This document shows, in pieces, positions 14,080 through 57,555 of a DNA stretch of 64,000 nucleotides (the stretch's first letter is position 1; each line of letters starts with the position of its first letter). The DNA is from Bordetella genomosp. 2. GTDB taxonomy: Bacteria; Pseudomonadota; Gammaproteobacteria; Burkholderiales; Burkholderiaceae_B. A program made the position numbers and the translations under genes. Under the pieces are notes generated by a model. It was not told the origin of the DNA and searched no databases. It saw only the letters and a program-made list of their open reading frames with translations. The DNA lies in assembly GCF_002261345.1 (NCBI RefSeq), contig NZ_NEVT01000006.1:496001-560000 (forward strand), written 5' to 3'.

Positions 14080-14954
14080 AAATCCTCAACGCGCTGCGCC
14101 GCCCCGTGGTGGGCAAATTCTTCGTGACGGCATTGACCGTCGCCGCGGCCGTCTATGCGGGCTGGCAATTGTGGAACCACTACGAAGTCGAGCCCTGGAC
14201 GCGCGACGGCCGGGTCAAGGCCTATGTCGTGCAGGTGGCGCCCGACGTGTCGGGCCTGGTGACCGCCGTGCCGGTGCACGACAACCAGGACGTCAAGGCG
14301 GGCGATGTCCTGTTCGAAATCGACCGCGCCCGCTTCCAGCTTGCCTACGACCAGGCGCAGGCCGCGGTGCGCGCGCAACAAGTGGCGCGCGACCAGGCGG
14401 CGCGCGATGCGCGGCGCAACCGCTCGCTCGGCAAGCTGGTGGCGGCCGAAGTCCTGGAGCAGAGCCAGGCCCGCCTGCAGCAGACCGAGGCGGCCCTGGC
14501 CGAAGCCCAGGTGCAGCGCGCCACCGCCAAGCTCAACCTGGAACGCAGCCGGGTGGTCGCGCCGACCGACGGACGCGTCACCAACCTGGACCTGCGGGTG
14601 GGTGCGTACGCCACCGCCGCGCATCCGGTCATGGCGCTGGTGGACGCCGGCTCGTTCTATGTGGAAGGCTATTTCGAGGAAACCAAGCTGGTGCACATTC
14701 ACGAGGGCGACGCGGCCACGGTGACGCTGATGGGTGAATCGCGGCAGATCCGCGGCCACGTGGACAGCATCGCGCTGGGCATCGCCGACCGCGACCGCAG
14801 CACCGGCGCCAATCTGCTGCCCAACGTCAACCCCGCCTTCAACTGGGTGCGGCTGGCGCAGCGCATCCCCGTGCGCGTACAGATCGACCAGGTGCCCCAG
14901 GGCGTGCGGCTGGTGGCGGGCCAGACCGCGACCGTGGAGGTCGACGCATCATGA
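14076..14954 (+). CDS. HlyD/AaeA-family membrane fusion protein
   Basis: 292 residues: an N-terminal anchor (about 12-30), then a biotinyl-lipoyl half motif (VEPWTRDGRVKAYVVQVAPDVSG), a helical hairpin (about 90-140) and a beta-barrel (VVAPTDGRVTNLDLRVG). It would link the FUSC pump to the outer-membrane duct across the periplasm. The ATG at 14076 overlaps the DUF1656 stop; an in-frame upstream extension is only a shadow of that gene. Confidence 0.93.
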   Translation: MKILNALRRPVVGKFFVTALTVAAAVYAGWQLWNHYEVEPWTRDGRVKAYVVQVAPDVSGLVTAVPVHDNQDVKAGDVLFEIDRARFQLAYDQAQAAVRAQQVARDQAARDARRNRSLGKLVAAEVLEQSQARLQQTEAALAEAQVQRATAKLNLERSRVVAPTDGRVTNLDLRVGAYATAAHPVMALVDAGSFYVEGYFEETKLVHIHEGDAATVTLMGESRQIRGHVDSIALGIADRDRSTGANLLPNVNPAFNWVRLAQRIPVRVQIDQVPQGVRLVAGQTATVEVDAS

Positions 14955-16414
14955 CCGCCCGTCCACTCTCCGCCCTGGCGCTGGCCCTGGCGCTGGCCGG
15001 CTGCGCCGCGGTCGGCCCCGACTACCACCTGCCCGCCAGCGCCGCGGCCCGGCGTCCGGCGGCATCGGCCGGCTTCCAGCAGGCCCGCGAGACGGCGTTC
15101 CGGCAGGACAGCGTGCCCGGCACCTGGTGGCGCCTTTACCAGGATCCCGCCCTGGATGCCCTGATCCAGCAGGCGCTGCGGGCCAACACCGACCTGCGCA
15201 TCGCCGCGGCCAACCTGCAGCGGGCCCAGGCCGTCACCCAGGAAGCGCGCGGCCAGCAGCAGCCCACGCTGGGTGTCGACGCCTCGCCCACTTTCGGCCA
15301 TGCCTCCGGCGTCCAGGCCGGCGCCCCCGATACCCGTCCGATGGACCGTTGGTCTTATTCGAGCGGCATCAGCGTCGCCTACCAGGTCGACCTGTTCGGC
15401 CAGATCCGGCGCGCCGTCGAGGCCGCGGCCGGCGACGAACAGGCGGCGCAGGCCGCGTACGATGCCGCGCGCGTCGCCGTGGCCGCCGAGACGGCGCGCG
15501 CCTATGCCGATATCTGCGCGGCCGGCATGCAGCTGGCCTCGGCGCGCCGGTCCGTGCAAGTGCAGCGCGACTCGCTGGATGCCGTGCAGCGCCTGCAACA
15601 GGCCGGCCGCGGCACGGCGCTGGACGTGTCGCGCGCGCGCAGCCAGCTCGAACAGCTGCAGGCCGAGCTGCCGCCCTTCCAGGCCAGCCAGCGCACCGCG
15701 CTGTACCGCCTGGCCGCCCTGACCGGCCGCGCGCCCGCCGAGATGCCGGCCGCGCTGCTGCAATGCGAACGCCCGCCGCGCCTGGACCAGCCAATCCCGG
15801 TCGGCGACGGCGCGGCGCTGCTGCGGCGCCGCCCCGATATCCGCCAGGCCGAACGCAGCCTGGCCGCCGCGACGGCGCGCATCGGCGTGGCCACGGCCGC
15901 GCTGTACCCCACCATCACCCTCGGCTTGTCGGGCGGCTCGGCCGGCCCCGCCGCCATGCTGGGCGAGCGCGGCACATTCAGTTGGAGCGTCGGCCCGCTG
16001 ATCTCCTGGACACTGCCCAATACCGGCGTGGCGCAGGCCCGCATCGCCCAGGCCCGCGCCAGCGCCGGCGCCGCGCTGGCGCGTTTCGACGCGGCGGTGC
16101 TGGGCGCCTTGCGCGAAACCGAAAGCGCGCTGGTGACCTATGCGCGCCAGCTCGACCGCGATGCCGCGCTGCGGGCCGCGCGCGACCAGAGCGCGCTGGC
16201 CGCCCGCCAGGCCGGGCAGCTGTTCCGGGCCGGCAAGACCGACTACCTGACCGTGCTGGACGCCCAGCGCACGCTGGCCGCCAACGAAAGCGCGCTGGCC
16301 GCCTCGCAGGCCGCCCTCAGCGACGATCAGATCGCCCTGTTCCTGGCCTTGGGCGGGGGCTGGCAGGATGCGCCGGCCCAGCCCGGGACAGCGGCAGCCG
16401 GCAGCCGCAGATAG
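14951..16414 (+). CDS. Outer-membrane efflux lipoprotein, NodT/OprM family (FUSC system)
   Basis: 487 residues. The signal peptide ends in the lipobox LAGC (Cys near 18) followed by AAVGPDYHLP, then two TolC-type repeats, ending in LALGGGW as expected. It closes the MarR-FUSC operon as the outer-membrane channel and starts 4 bases inside the fusion-protein gene. It is a paralogue in function of the lipoprotein at 2.2 kb, which serves the ABC exporter. Confidence 0.93.
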   Translation: MTARPLSALALALALAGCAAVGPDYHLPASAAARRPAASAGFQQARETAFRQDSVPGTWWRLYQDPALDALIQQALRANTDLRIAAANLQRAQAVTQEARGQQQPTLGVDASPTFGHASGVQAGAPDTRPMDRWSYSSGISVAYQVDLFGQIRRAVEAAAGDEQAAQAAYDAARVAVAAETARAYADICAAGMQLASARRSVQVQRDSLDAVQRLQQAGRGTALDVSRARSQLEQLQAELPPFQASQRTALYRLAALTGRAPAEMPAALLQCERPPRLDQPIPVGDGAALLRRRPDIRQAERSLAAATARIGVATAALYPTITLGLSGGSAGPAAMLGERGTFSWSVGPLISWTLPNTGVAQARIAQARASAGAALARFDAAVLGALRETESALVTYARQLDRDAALRAARDQSALAARQAGQLFRAGKTDYLTVLDAQRTLAANESALAASQAALSDDQIALFLALGGGWQDAPAQPGTAAAGSRR

Positions 16415-16434
16415 GCGGCTGGCGCGCTTGCCTT

Positions 16435-16584
16435 GGTGTCAGACACCCCCACTCAGCCGGCGCGGATAGGCGCAAGCGCGGCGCGGGGTGTCTGACACCT
16501 GGACAACCGGCGTCGGGTTTCGGTGTCAGACACCCTTGCGACGCTTGCGCTTATCCACGCCGCTTGCGCGGGGTGTCTGACACC
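16435..16584. repeat. Array of four 13-bp palindromes, GGTGTC-A/T-GACACC
   Basis: Four palindromes are at 16435-16447 (centre A), 16487-16499 (centre T), 16522-16534 (centre A) and 16572-16584 (centre T). Within each pair the starts are 50-52 bases apart. The two intervening segments are inverted and diverged copies of each other: GGATAGGCGCAAGCG in the first and the complement of GGATAAGCGCAAGCG in the second. The array fills the gap between two convergent genes. The same 13-mer recurs in a second array at 56.6 kb. Confidence 0.9.
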
Positions 16585-16618
16585 TGGGCGACATCCGGGC
16601 ACCCCGGTCCGCCCGCGT

Positions 16619-17323
16619 TCAATGCAGCGTCGATCCTTCGGGCGGTTTCTGGTTCAGCCCCAGCGCGGCTTCCCAGCTGCGCAGCGGCACGCAGGTCTGC
16701 AGGCGCTCGATGGCCCGCTGCACCAGGGCGGGATGCAGTTCGTGCCCGACTTTGCTTGCCACGTCGATGGTGGAATCGCCATGCAGCGCATCGAGCCGCG
16801 CCTGGGCGGCCTGGGCATGCGCCACCGCCATGACCGGATCGTCGGCGCCATGCAGCAGGTGGATGGTGGTGTATTGCGGCGCGCTCTTGGGCAACTGGGC
16901 ATAGCGGCCGGAAAACGCCAGCACCCGGCCCGCCAGCCCGTCGTGGGCCTGCACGGCTTCCAGCGCCATGATGGCGCCCTGCGAAAAGCCCGCCAGGGCG
17001 GTATCGGACTGCAGCAGGCCGAGGCGGGCCTGGGCCGCGCGGATATAGTCGACCAGCGCCGGCAGGGCGCGGGCCACGCGCTCGCCGCGGTTGTCGTCGT
17101 TTACGCCGCGCACCGAGAACCATTGCCGCCCGGCGGCGCCGCCGTCGTAGGGCTCGAAGCCCGCCGGCGCGAGAATGGCGGCCGCCGGAAAGGCGGCGCC
17201 CAGCGCCCGGGCGAGCGGCAGCAGGTGCTGCGGGGTGCCGCCCACGCCATGCAGCAGGATGAACAACTGCTGGATGGCAGTGTCGGGGGCGGGCAGGAAT
17301 TCGAGCTCGGCAGGATCGGCCAT
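16619..17323 (-). CDS. Alpha/beta-hydrolase esterase (YpfH / phospholipase-carboxylesterase family)
   Basis: 234 residues with an alpha/beta-hydrolase fold: LFILLHGVGGTPQ is the oxyanion-hole region, GFSQGAIM holds the nucleophile Ser, HGADDPVM the Asp and KVGHELHPA the His. Family members are cytoplasmic carboxylesterases with broad substrates. The start MADPAELEF is chosen because an upstream in-frame ATG adds only Arg/Pro-rich sequence. It is divergent from the imuA cassette and convergent with the efflux operon. Confidence 0.88.
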   Translation of the reverse strand: MADPAELEFLPAPDTAIQQLFILLHGVGGTPQHLLPLARALGAAFPAAAILAPAGFEPYDGGAAGRQWFSVRGVNDDNRGERVARALPALVDYIRAAQARLGLLQSDTALAGFSQGAIMALEAVQAHDGLAGRVLAFSGRYAQLPKSAPQYTTIHLLHGADDPVMAVAHAQAAQARLDALHGDSTIDVASKVGHELHPALVQRAIERLQTCVPLRSWEAALGLNQKPPEGSTLH

Positions 17324-17419
17324 GAAGGTTCCGGGACGCGCGCCTGGCGCGCGCCGCAAAGTTTCATTGTAGAGGCCGCCCCGGGGCAGCCCCAAGCCTG
17401 GCTGGCGCAGCGCTGGAAA

Positions 17420-55370: not shown

Positions 55371-56609
55371 ATGGATAAAGCGGATATCTCCTGGTTGCTC
55401 GTTTCCACCCTGCTGGTATTGATGATGGCGGTGCCCGGCCTGGCGCTGTTCTACGGCGGCCTGGTGCGCAGCAAGAATGTACTGTCGGTGCTGATGCAGG
55501 TCCTGTGCACCTTCGCCCTGGGCCTGGTGCTGTGGTTCGCCTATGGCTATTCGCTCGCCTTCACGGAAGGCAACGCGTTCTTCGGCGGCCTGTCGCGCGC
55601 CTTCTTCTCGGGCATGTTCACGCCCGCCGATGGCGCATACGCCATGTCCGGCTCGCTGACCGAGTTGCTGTTCGCCTCGTTCCAGGCGACCTTCGCGGGC
55701 ATCACCTGCGCGCTGATCGTGGGCAGCTTCGCCGAGCGGGCCCGCTTTTCGGCGGTCCTGGTGTTCACGGTGATCTGGTTCACTTTCGCGTACGTGCCGA
55801 TCGCCCACATGGTGTGGTTCGCCTCGGAAACGGCCCCCGGCCTGCTCAACGCGCGCGGCGCGCTGGATTTCGCCGGCGGCACCGTGGTGCACATCAACGC
55901 CGGGGTCGCCGGCCTGGTGGGCGCCTACGTGGTCGGCAAGCGCGTGGGCTACGGCCGCGAGGCCATGCAGCCGCACAACCTGCCCATGACCTTCATCGGC
56001 GCCGCGCTGCTGTGGGTGGGCTGGTTCGGCTTCAATGCGGGCTCGGCGCTGGCGTCGAACGAAGCCGCCACGCTGGCATTCTTCAACACCATGATCGCCA
56101 CCGCGGGCGCGGTGCTGGCATGGCTGTTCACGGAATGGGCCGTCAAGGGCCGGCCTTCGATGCTGGGCGCCGCCTCGGGCGCGGTGGCCGGCCTGGTCGG
56201 CATCACGCCCGCCGCAGGCCTGGTCGGGCCCGGCGGCGCGCTGGTCATCGGCGTGGTGGCGGGCGCCGTGTGCGTCTGGGGCGTCAACGGCCTGAAACGC
56301 CTGCTGCGGGCCGACGACGCCCTGGACGTGTTCGGCGTGCACGGCGTCGGCGGCATCATCGGCGCCCTGCTGACGGGCGTGTTCAATGCCCAGGCGCTGG
56401 GCGGGCCGGGCCTGGCCGACGCCGGCGCCATCCTCGGTCAGGTGTGGGTGCAACTCGAAGGCGTGCTGCTCACCATCGTGTGGTCCGGCGTGGTCGCGTG
56501 GATCGCCTACAAGATCGCCAACATGCTGTGCGGCGTGCGCGTGCCGGAAGACCAGGAACGCGAAGGCCTGGATGTGACGAGCCACGGCGAATCGGCCTAT
56601 CACAGCTGA
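55371..56609 (+). CDS. amtB: Ammonium transporter AmtB
   Basis: 412 residues with 11 membrane helices and no cleavable signal. The two pore histidines lie in DFAGGTVVHINAGVAG and VHGVGGIIGALLTG; the Phe/Trp gate region and GLALFYGGLVRSKNVLSVLMQ are standard. It conducts ammonium and is regulated by GlnK, encoded 37 bases upstream. Transcription ends in the palindrome array that follows. Confidence 0.97.
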   Translation: MDKADISWLLVSTLLVLMMAVPGLALFYGGLVRSKNVLSVLMQVLCTFALGLVLWFAYGYSLAFTEGNAFFGGLSRAFFSGMFTPADGAYAMSGSLTELLFASFQATFAGITCALIVGSFAERARFSAVLVFTVIWFTFAYVPIAHMVWFASETAPGLLNARGALDFAGGTVVHINAGVAGLVGAYVVGKRVGYGREAMQPHNLPMTFIGAALLWVGWFGFNAGSALASNEAATLAFFNTMIATAGAVLAWLFTEWAVKGRPSMLGAASGAVAGLVGITPAAGLVGPGGALVIGVVAGAVCVWGVNGLKRLLRADDALDVFGVHGVGGIIGALLTGVFNAQALGGPGLADAGAILGQVWVQLEGVLLTIVWSGVVAWIAYKIANMLCGVRVPEDQEREGLDVTSHGESAYHS

Positions 56610-56620
56610 TCTCGGCTTTG

Positions 56621-56893
56621 CCAGGTGTCTGACACCCCGTGCGATGTTCGCTGCCTGCGCAGCGCGTCTCAGGGGGTGTCAGACACCTTCGCCCTTACAT
56701 GCCGCCCTACTTCATCGATGCCAGGTGTCTGACACCCGTGCGACGCTCGCTGCCTGCGCAGTGCGTCTCGCGAGGTGTCAGACACCTTCGCTCTTGCATT
56801 CCGCCCTACTTCATCGATGCCAGGTGTCTGACACCCGGTGCGACGCTCGCTGCCTGCGCAGTGCGTCTCGCGGGGTGTCAGACACCTTCGCTC
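56621..56893. repeat. Array of six 13-bp palindromes, three tandem ~100-bp units
   Basis: Palindromes GGTGTC-T-GACACC and GGTGTC-A-GACACC alternate at 56624, 56675, 56724, 56774, 56823 and 56874, so starts are 51, 49, 50, 49 and 51 bases apart. The array is three near-identical units beginning at 56621, 56721 and 56820 (period 100 and 99). Within a unit the outer palindromes (AGGTGTCTGACACC and GGTGTCAGACACCT), inner GACGC/GCGTC and central CTGCGCAG nest as one long hairpin. It lies between convergent amtB and a tetR gene. Confidence 0.95.
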
Positions 56894-56943: not shown

Positions 56944-57555
56944 CTATCCGGCGCGCAGGCTGGCGTCGATCAGGCGGCGCGCCGCTTCGGGCAGGTGGCG
57001 GGCGGGGCCGCCCCGGCCGAACAGCTGGCTGGAAACAAACGCGCCCTCCAGTAACAGCAACAGGCCGTCGGCCAGCACCTCCGGCTCGGCGGCGCCCATG
57101 GCGTGCGCCAGTTCGACCATGCGCGCGCGCAACTGGATCTTGTGCGCCACCGCCACCTGGCGCGCCGGATGGTCCGGCTCGGGGTACTCGACCGCCGCGT
57201 TGGTCAGGCCGCAGCCGCGATAGCGGGCGCTGCTGGAAGCGCGCTGGGCCAGCCCCTCGAAATACATCATCAGGCTGGCGCGCGGGTCGTCCGGATGCAC
57301 CTGCTCGCCGGCGTTGAACTTGGCCCAGAACTCGGCCTCGTAGTCGCGCAGGTACGAGGCCGCCAGTTCGTCCTTGGACGAGAAGCTGCGGTACAGGCTG
57401 GGCTTGGTCACGCCCGCCTCGGCCACCAGCGCGTCGACCCCGACGGCGCGGATGCCGTCTTCATAGAACATGCGGCGGGCGGTCTCGCGGATGCGGTCGG
57501 CGGCCGGCTTGTGCGGCGCGGCCGGTTCGGCGGATGCGGGGGATTTGCGAGCCAT
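56944..57555 (-). CDS. TetR/AcrR-family repressor
   Basis: 203 residues: N-terminal HTH ETARRMFYEDGIRAVGVDALVAEAGVTKPSLYRSFSSKDELAASYL (about 23-68) and a ligand-binding C-terminal domain. It is divergent from an MFS transporter gene, and a two-part inverted repeat lies between the two starts, so it probably represses the transporter and itself. Ligand unknown. Confidence 0.92.
   Translation of the reverse strand: MARKSPASAEPAAPHKPAADRIRETARRMFYEDGIRAVGVDALVAEAGVTKPSLYRSFSSKDELAASYLRDYEAEFWAKFNAGEQVHPDDPRASLMMYFEGLAQRASSSARYRGCGLTNAAVEYPEPDHPARQVAVAHKIQLRARMVELAHAMGAAEPEVLADGLLLLLEGAFVSSQLFGRGGPARHLPEAARRLIDASLRAG

Follow-up and report, generated by a model that had tools for sequence, protein, structure and literature searches.

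The 64,000-nucleotide stretch of the Bordetella genomosp. 2 genome analysed here (the window) carries six copies of a perfect 13-bp palindrome, GGTGTC-W-GACACC, at nearly even distances between the convergent genes of an amtB-like ammonium transporter and a TetR-type regulator. What is such an array, and what made it? The first-pass annotation, which had recognized the convergent setting, considered a protein-binding or transcription-stopping element of a REP/BIME-like family with a constant pitch of about five helical turns. We regard it as very likely (a probability of roughly 0.83) that the array is one locus of a population of REPINs that lack the GTAG tag and are made by a REP-associated tyrosine transposase (RAYT) of subclass 2.1. 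Each element of the population consists of two inverted palindromes, A-GGTGTCWGACACC-C ... G-GGTGTCWGACACC-T, with a spacer of 5 bp in the short type and of about 37-40 bp in the long type, to which the window array belongs, and a single-stranded dimer would be able to fold as one hairpin. A chromosomal single-copy RAYT, a HuH/Tyr nuclease with a Y1_Tnp domain, would make and maintain these dimers by recognizing the palindrome in single-stranded DNA, cutting beside it and moving or copying the dimer to other intergenic sites; the three units after amtB would have been built later by local tandem duplication. Binding, cleavage and copying by the RAYT are inferred, as is any benefit to the host.

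Palindrome dimers in the Bordetella genome

GGTGTCWGACACC occurs in 354 exact copies in the whole genome (5.02 Mb in nine contigs) and the reversed pattern, used as a control, in none. This is far above chance frequency and, together with the dimer anatomy described below, bears out the earlier proposal of a REP/BIME-like family that spreads as units. Our more detailed counts come from 864 kb of the genome (contig C8, positions 1-640,000; contig C1, positions 1-160,000; and the window), in which there are 87 exact copies. A neighbour with at most one mismatch lies within 130 bp of 85 of these 87, and the same holds for 62 of 62 copies in genome G006, 27 of 28 in G003 and 8 of 9 in G083 (Achromobacter), each counted in a 400-kb sample. 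Orientation is marked by one base on each side of the palindrome, an outer A and an inner C; in this genome clear conservation is limited to one base per side, A or T at the outer and C or G at the inner position, and no GTAG or GTGG tetranucleotide characterizes the foot of the palindrome. Exact pairs that face inward have a pitch of either 18 bp (13 pairs) or 50-53 bp (18 pairs) and no other, and neighbouring dimers lie anywhere from 22 to 100 bp apart (17 pairs), nine ambiguous neighbour pairs being omitted from both counts. The spacing preference expected by the first-pass annotation is therefore strong inside dimers and does not extend to the distances between them, and a constant pitch of about five turns is not a property of the family.

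The array after amtB is built from such dimers. Its palindromes start at 56624, 56675, 56724, 56774, 56823 and 56874, with start-to-start spacings of 51, 49, 50, 49 and 51 and with T, A, T, A, T and A as central bases, exactly as first described. Tandem Repeats Finder detects a single array of period 99 (2.8 copies, 93% matches), in line with the tandem units of about 100 bp noticed earlier, and the pairwise identities of the units are 89%, 82% and 79%. The even pitch results from the tandem repetition of a 51-bp dimer and a linker about as long, the alternation of the central base is the inverted symmetry of the dimer, and the even 50-bp beat is a peculiarity of this tandem array and not of the palindrome family. 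The proposed nesting of each unit into one hairpin agrees with our folding calculations, in which dimers fold as one hairpin; dimer 1 does so with −29.2 kcal/mol as DNA (z −7.5) and −51.6 as RNA (z −8.0). Additional pairing between the spacer arms was rejected as weak. Complementary central bases were found in 30 of 31 internal pairs, and since a single palindrome is already nearly self-complementary, this agreement within dimers fits the dimer rather than the single palindrome as the inherited unit. Dimers read A-first in 41 cases and T-first in 17. At up to two mismatches the entire window has 10 palindrome matches, all of them exact, compared with a mean of 1.18 and a maximum of 4 in shuffled sequences.

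Perfect 13-bp symmetry and the five-turn pitch after amtB are also what one would expect if a DNA-binding or nucleoid protein used the palindrome as its operator, with the even 50-bp pitch phasing bound dimers on the helix. We consider this highly improbable in view of the variable distances between dimers, the other internal pitch of 18 bp, the avoidance of divergent promoter regions (1 of 27 clusters, see below) and the complete absence of the site from two congeners. Helical phasing was rejected because only the internal pitch of the dimer is fixed. A CRISPR-like array was set aside as well, since the stretches between palindromes are near-copies of each other and the orientation alternates. 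At gathering thresholds Rfam recognizes nothing in the window except a tRNA, and we found no match of the exact short dimer to viral contigs or of the array to plasmids.

The position of the palindromes was assessed with gene calls from a simple codon-usage script (coding fraction 87-89%) which missed the RAYT gene itself. In our sample 80 of the 87 palindromes are intergenic, where about 10 would be expected, so that a mostly genic location, which would have spoken against a functional repeat family, does not apply. They form 30 clusters, of which 16 lie between convergent and 12 between tandem genes, one between divergent genes and one within a gene. When the two clusters that flank the RAYT and the genic one are set aside, 14 of 27 are convergent, whereas convergent gaps make up 12% of the intergenic bases (p = 7e-7); a single one is divergent (p = 4e-4). 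REPs have been reported mostly between co-directional and convergent genes (PMC3733652).

A strong hairpin in such positions could mean that the dimers are mainly transcription terminators, or stabilizers of mRNA 3′ ends, kept by selection between convergent genes. A short dimer indeed stands at the amtB slot of G004 (L174), followed by T7, and of G005 (L176), followed by T6, which is the shape of an intrinsic terminator, and a co-option of these dimers as amtB terminators is possible. On the whole we nevertheless judge this explanation unlikely. The array itself contains no terminator-like site (a GC stem followed by a T run), and of the dimer ends only 3 of 72 in our sample, and 1 of 68, 1 of 50 and 1 of 22 in samples of three other genomes, have at least five T among the next eight bases, albeit above the background rate of 0.5-0.8%. 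Furthermore, two congeners have no copy at all and the identity of the motif tracks the RAYT lineage. Transcription stopping as a general role, suggested initially, is not supported, T tails being rare and missing at the array.

A single-copy RAYT and the distribution of the palindrome

The genome contains one PF01797 (Y1_Tnp) gene, a single-copy RAYT of 191 amino acids with an open frame and intact HuH and Tyr motifs. It is bracketed on both sides by palindromes, 14 in total and all in short dimers. On the NCBIfam model for REP-associated tyrosine transposases it scores 77.9 bits, just below the cut-off of 80, and its relative in G003 exceeds the cut-off with 87.4 bits. The closest solved structure by sequence profile is that of the E. 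coli TnpAREP (PDB 4ER8, E 1.2e-5); PADLOC did not match the protein, and an AlphaFold model from five sequences had a mean pLDDT of 51 and was not used. The RAYT cassette lies between two copies of a 172-bp direct repeat, 99% identical (L016, 1098-1269 and 2155-2326; G000:C8 near 91,865 and 92,922), which on either side comprises the tail of the adjoining efflux-type gene and two short dimers; this suggests a recent arrival or duplication of the cassette. The locus shares no neighbouring genes with 11 other RAYT loci compared.

Copy number of the palindrome goes along with possession of a closely related RAYT. Six of the nine genomes of the genus have one RAYT gene each, and two congeners without the gene have zero palindromes. 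Among 268 genomes of the family, a related RAYT (E ≤ 1e-20) is present in 30 and at least 10 palindromes in 16. A close RAYT, scoring at least 309 bits, is present in nine genomes; these carry 354, 192, 585, 46, 564, 10, 189, 238 and 618 palindromes, so that all nine reach at least 10 copies, compared with 7 of the 259 others (116, 125, 126, 65, 31, 150 and 44 copies). Fisher's test gives p = 7e-13, treating species as independent, which they are not, and ignoring phylogeny; within the two main genera the proportions are 9 of 9 and 6 of 43 (p = 1e-6, phylogeny again ignored). Exact palindromes stand beside seven of the nine close RAYTs, and variants beside the other two.

Named relatives of the RAYT are found in Bordetella petrii strains and three Achromobacter species (63-70% identity), then in Herbaspirillum, Massilia and others. 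All three Achromobacter loci bear the same palindrome in their flanks; they belong to genomes G099, G083 and G062 and thus add no further evidence. The check for palindromes beside RAYTs from this comparison covered 24 of 80 loci, and at the 19 of these outside Bordetella and Achromobacter none was found with up to one mismatch.

The repeats could also be relics: the RAYT, now inactive, would once have spread them, and vertical descent, tandem duplication and gene conversion would account for their persistence. The explanation overlaps with the one we prefer, the sole difference being present activity, and we think it possible but doubtful. It would account for the six genomes that retain 31-150 copies without a detected RAYT, for the 564 copies of G006, whose RAYT frame (L020/L150) holds an in-frame TGA, and for tandem units in the window that are 79-89% identical. 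In Bordetella genomosp. 2, however, the frame is open with both motifs intact, the occupation of slots varies among relatives, and the direct repeat around the RAYT suggests a recent event.

RAYT subclass and flank motifs

Returning to a REPIN population made by a RAYT, the protein displays the motifs NHVH, WE, YIELNP and SS with 62 residues between HuH and Tyr. Subclass 2.1 is described by NHVH, W[EQ], YIELNP and SS and a HuH-Y distance of 58-67 (Quentin et al. 2018, PMC6006769), so by its motifs and this distance the enzyme would fit subclass 2.1. Its length agrees less well. The Bordetella RAYTs have 184-202 amino acids from the chosen start, and a Pfam scan of two of them finds Y1_Tnp only, compared with a median of 238 and a C-terminal domain in subclass 2.1 (PMC6006769); we take these as tendencies of the group and not as strict criteria. 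Five of six sister RAYTs (L151-L156) have 230-232 amino acids. According to the same source, which cites Bertels et al. 2017 for the definition of the RAYT groups, subclass 2.1 is the largest in the published table, with 493 members, and neither automatic nor manual search revealed REP-like sequences for subclasses 2.1 and 2.3.

The terminal inverted repeats around such genes are known to share the motif GGGGWSAS (Di Nocera et al. 2013, PMC3733652). Read inward from its outer A, the A-first palindrome starts GGTGTCAG, one base off this motif. The window array has the T-first form, which agrees with it less closely and mismatches at position 7. To the 39 of 75 loci (L067-L141) with recognizable motifs, an uninterrupted frame and flanks of 400 bp or more on either side, all outside Bordetella and Achromobacter, we applied the motif both strictly and in a form relaxed post hoc. 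Inverted pairs of GGGGWSAS flank 9 of 39 RAYTs and pairs of the relaxed GGKGWSAS 19 of 39, with 0 of 91 shifted controls in both cases; two altered control motifs occur at 2 and 1 of 39.

A repeated word of the GTCAG type adjoins the RAYT in 18 of 27 loci, and it varies by lineage: GGTGTCAGACACC in the Bordetella and Achromobacter clade, GGTGTCAGGCACC in G005, GGTGTCCGGCACC in G001, AAGGTGTCAGACT in other Achromobacter and in G143, GGGTCAGACCC in G031, and GGGGTCAGACACGAT in G242 and G027. In a tree of 28 RAYTs, from which that of G006 was excluded, the enzymes with GGTGTC..GACACC or one of its two variants in their flanks make up a single clade (100/99), next to the AAGGTGTCAGACT enzymes (98/95 together). 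Counted on both strands in 23 genomes, AAGGTGTCAGACT reaches 259 copies in G143, 4-19 in five Achromobacter and no more than 6 in the remaining 17; GGGGTCAGACMC, counted in 17 genomes, reaches 2,109 in G031, 5 in G221, a congener of G031 without a RAYT match, 10 and 9 in G242 and G027, and no more than 6 in the remaining 13. GGTGTCMGGCACC has 100 copies in G001 and 81 in G005. Large expansions of the RAYT's own motif are thus present in two other lineages and not in others.

Several of the listed GGGGTCAGACMC places in the 4.4-Mb genome of G031 (RAYT locus L159) are opposite-strand pairs 18 bp apart. The motif of G143 (L156) is asymmetric, and its listed places often follow one another at intervals of about 43-50 bp. 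At L081, in an alphaproteobacterial metagenome-assembled genome, GTGACAGTCAC is found four times beside a related RAYT, and twice in a 24-base back-to-back form; a distant lineage thus has a comparable palindrome with an odd centre.

A number of observations weigh against our interpretation. No movement of a dimer has been observed, and mobilization by the RAYT is presumed. Only short-type dimers stand beside the RAYT, the window array being of the long type and in the rarer, T-first orientation. Spacings, unsorted by orientation, peak at 18 in G003 and G006 too, but also include 41-42 in the former and 17, 54 and 60-61 in the latter. Central bases are complementary in 13 of 17 external neighbour pairs as well, and spacer arms, with 6.7 of 12 positions paired, do only slightly better than arms taken from different copies (5.7) or shuffled sequences (5.0). 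Between 31 and 150 copies exist without a RAYT at E ≤ 1e-20 in G004, G063, G075, G087 (a genome 78% complete), G092 and G097, and the 44 copies of G141 coexist with a sole RAYT that is divergent and interrupted by TGA; a loss of the gene is our assumption here. Conversely, the RAYT-bearing G005 and G001 have only 10 and 46 exact copies, their flanks carrying variants, counted above as GGTGTCMGGCACC. The repeated word is absent at 9 of 27 RAYT loci, AAGGTGTCAGACT numbers just 4-19 in the five Achromobacter whose RAYT is related to the G143 enzyme, and in the RAYT-bearing G242 and G027 the flank motif reaches no more than 10 and 9 copies, most of which adjoin the gene. Finally, GGTGTCMGGCACC is also common in G003 (158), G008 (259) and G004 (132), and this blurs a cognate specificity within the genus.

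Window sites and relation to known systems

The features of the window are listed in Table 1. The remaining 4 of its 10 palindromes occupy a second site at 16435-16584, likewise between convergent genes.

Table 1. Positions of the palindrome sites and their neighbouring genes in the 64-kb window
Feature	Position	Strand	Description
Tandem array	56619..56893		period 99 bp, about 2.8 units, every unit a long-type REPIN-like dimer with its linker (Tandem Repeats Finder)
Dimer 1	56623..56688		A-GGTGTCTGACACC-C ... G-GGTGTCAGACACC-T; pitch 51; folds continuously as a single hairpin
Dimer 2	56723..56787		pitch 50; inner flanking base of the second palindrome is A, not G
Dimer 3	56822..56887		pitch 51
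amtB-like ammonium transporter	55371..56609	+	PF00909; upstream convergent neighbour of the array
TetR-type regulator	56944..57555	-	PF00440; downstream convergent neighbour of the array
Second site, dimer a	16434..16500		A then T, pitch 52
Second site, dimer b	16521..16585		A then T, pitch 50
Outer membrane efflux protein	14951..16414	+	PF02321; convergent neighbour of the second site
Carboxylesterase-type hydrolase	16619..17395	-	PF02230; convergent neighbour of the second site

Both slots vary among related species, the comparisons being between species. At the second site the palindrome is absent from all five relatives that can be aligned on both sides (G004, G003, G008, G005 and G002), in which the slot measures 31-132 bp; here it accommodates two dimers in 200 bp. 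G001 gave no match for this slot, and G006 and G007 matched on one side only. The amtB slot, filled by three long dimers in the window, contains short dimers in G004, G008 and G005, the motif is absent from the slot of G003 and G001, and the 470 bases after amtB in G006, G002 and G007 contain no palindrome.

REPIN-RAYT systems are the subject of a paper by Bertels and Rainey (2011, PMC3116915). As described in PMC8049555 and PMC8266576, these share with the present family hundreds of intergenic inverted hairpin dimers, a single-copy RAYT flanked by copies, and a motif paired to the RAYT lineage. The family differs in having no GTAG or GTGG and in its unit, a perfect 13-bp palindrome with a single central base, and its RAYT has the motifs of subclass 2.1 whereas canonical REPs are assigned to subclasses 2.2, 2.4, 2.5, 2.7 and 2.8 (PMC6006769). 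The E. coli TnpAREP mentioned above is a distant relative, of subclass 2.2 and GTAG-dependent, with bulged REPs (PMC8266576, PMC6006769). The Group 3 REPtrons of Marinomonas (Mb) and S. maltophilia (Sm) also involve short perfect palindromes, with stems of 5-8 bp recognized by the RAYT, but there a GTAG is present and the loop comprises several bases (Corneloup et al. 2021, PMC8266576).

In the TIRtron/TIRYT elements, as here, a tyrosine transposase is flanked by repeats unrelated to the GTAG REPs (PMC3733652). Their terminal inverted repeats, which have the GGGGWSAS motif, are in some cases self-complementary and dimeric, and moderately repeated in few genomes such as that of S. maltophilia; in contrast, eight of the nine genomes with a close RAYT hold 46-618 palindromes and G031 has 2,109 copies of its own motif. 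A text search of this paper gave no mention of Achromobacter and a single one of Bordetellae, as untagged repeats. The Bor repeats are small stem-loop repeats near coding regions of Bordetella, 26-30 bp long in the 2006 description, which have been likened to REPs (Petrillo 2006, PMC1590033; PMC2267715, 2008); the passages compared mention no link to a transposase. They may or may not be related to our palindromes. Our searches of open-licence papers yielded neither this palindrome family nor any case in which a subclass 2.1 RAYT is linked to a REPIN population; GGTGTCAGACACC was not found there as text, and GTGTCTGACAC only in six papers which, judging by titles and abstracts, come from other fields. 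The kind of element is already known from REPINs with their RAYTs; for subclass 2.1 RAYTs it is apparently undescribed.

Looking beyond this genome, it seems rather likely to us that subclass 2.1 RAYTs (Bertels group 1) are makers of REPIN populations with the recognition core GG(G/T)G(A/T)(C/G)A(C/G), and that in several lineages of the Burkholderiales the terminal-repeat motif grew together with its enzyme into short palindromes of tens to thousands of copies, a GTAG-free branch of REPINs. On the practical side, even spacing of repeats at one locus can arise by tandem duplication of dimers. If our interpretation is correct, REPIN-RAYT biology would be extended to the largest RAYT subclass in the published table, one for which that survey detected no REP-like sequences. 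The related enzymes, whose target motifs would lie a few bases apart and could be read from their own flanks, would then provide a natural set for studying how a RAYT chooses its target and how a terminal inverted repeat passes into a REPIN.
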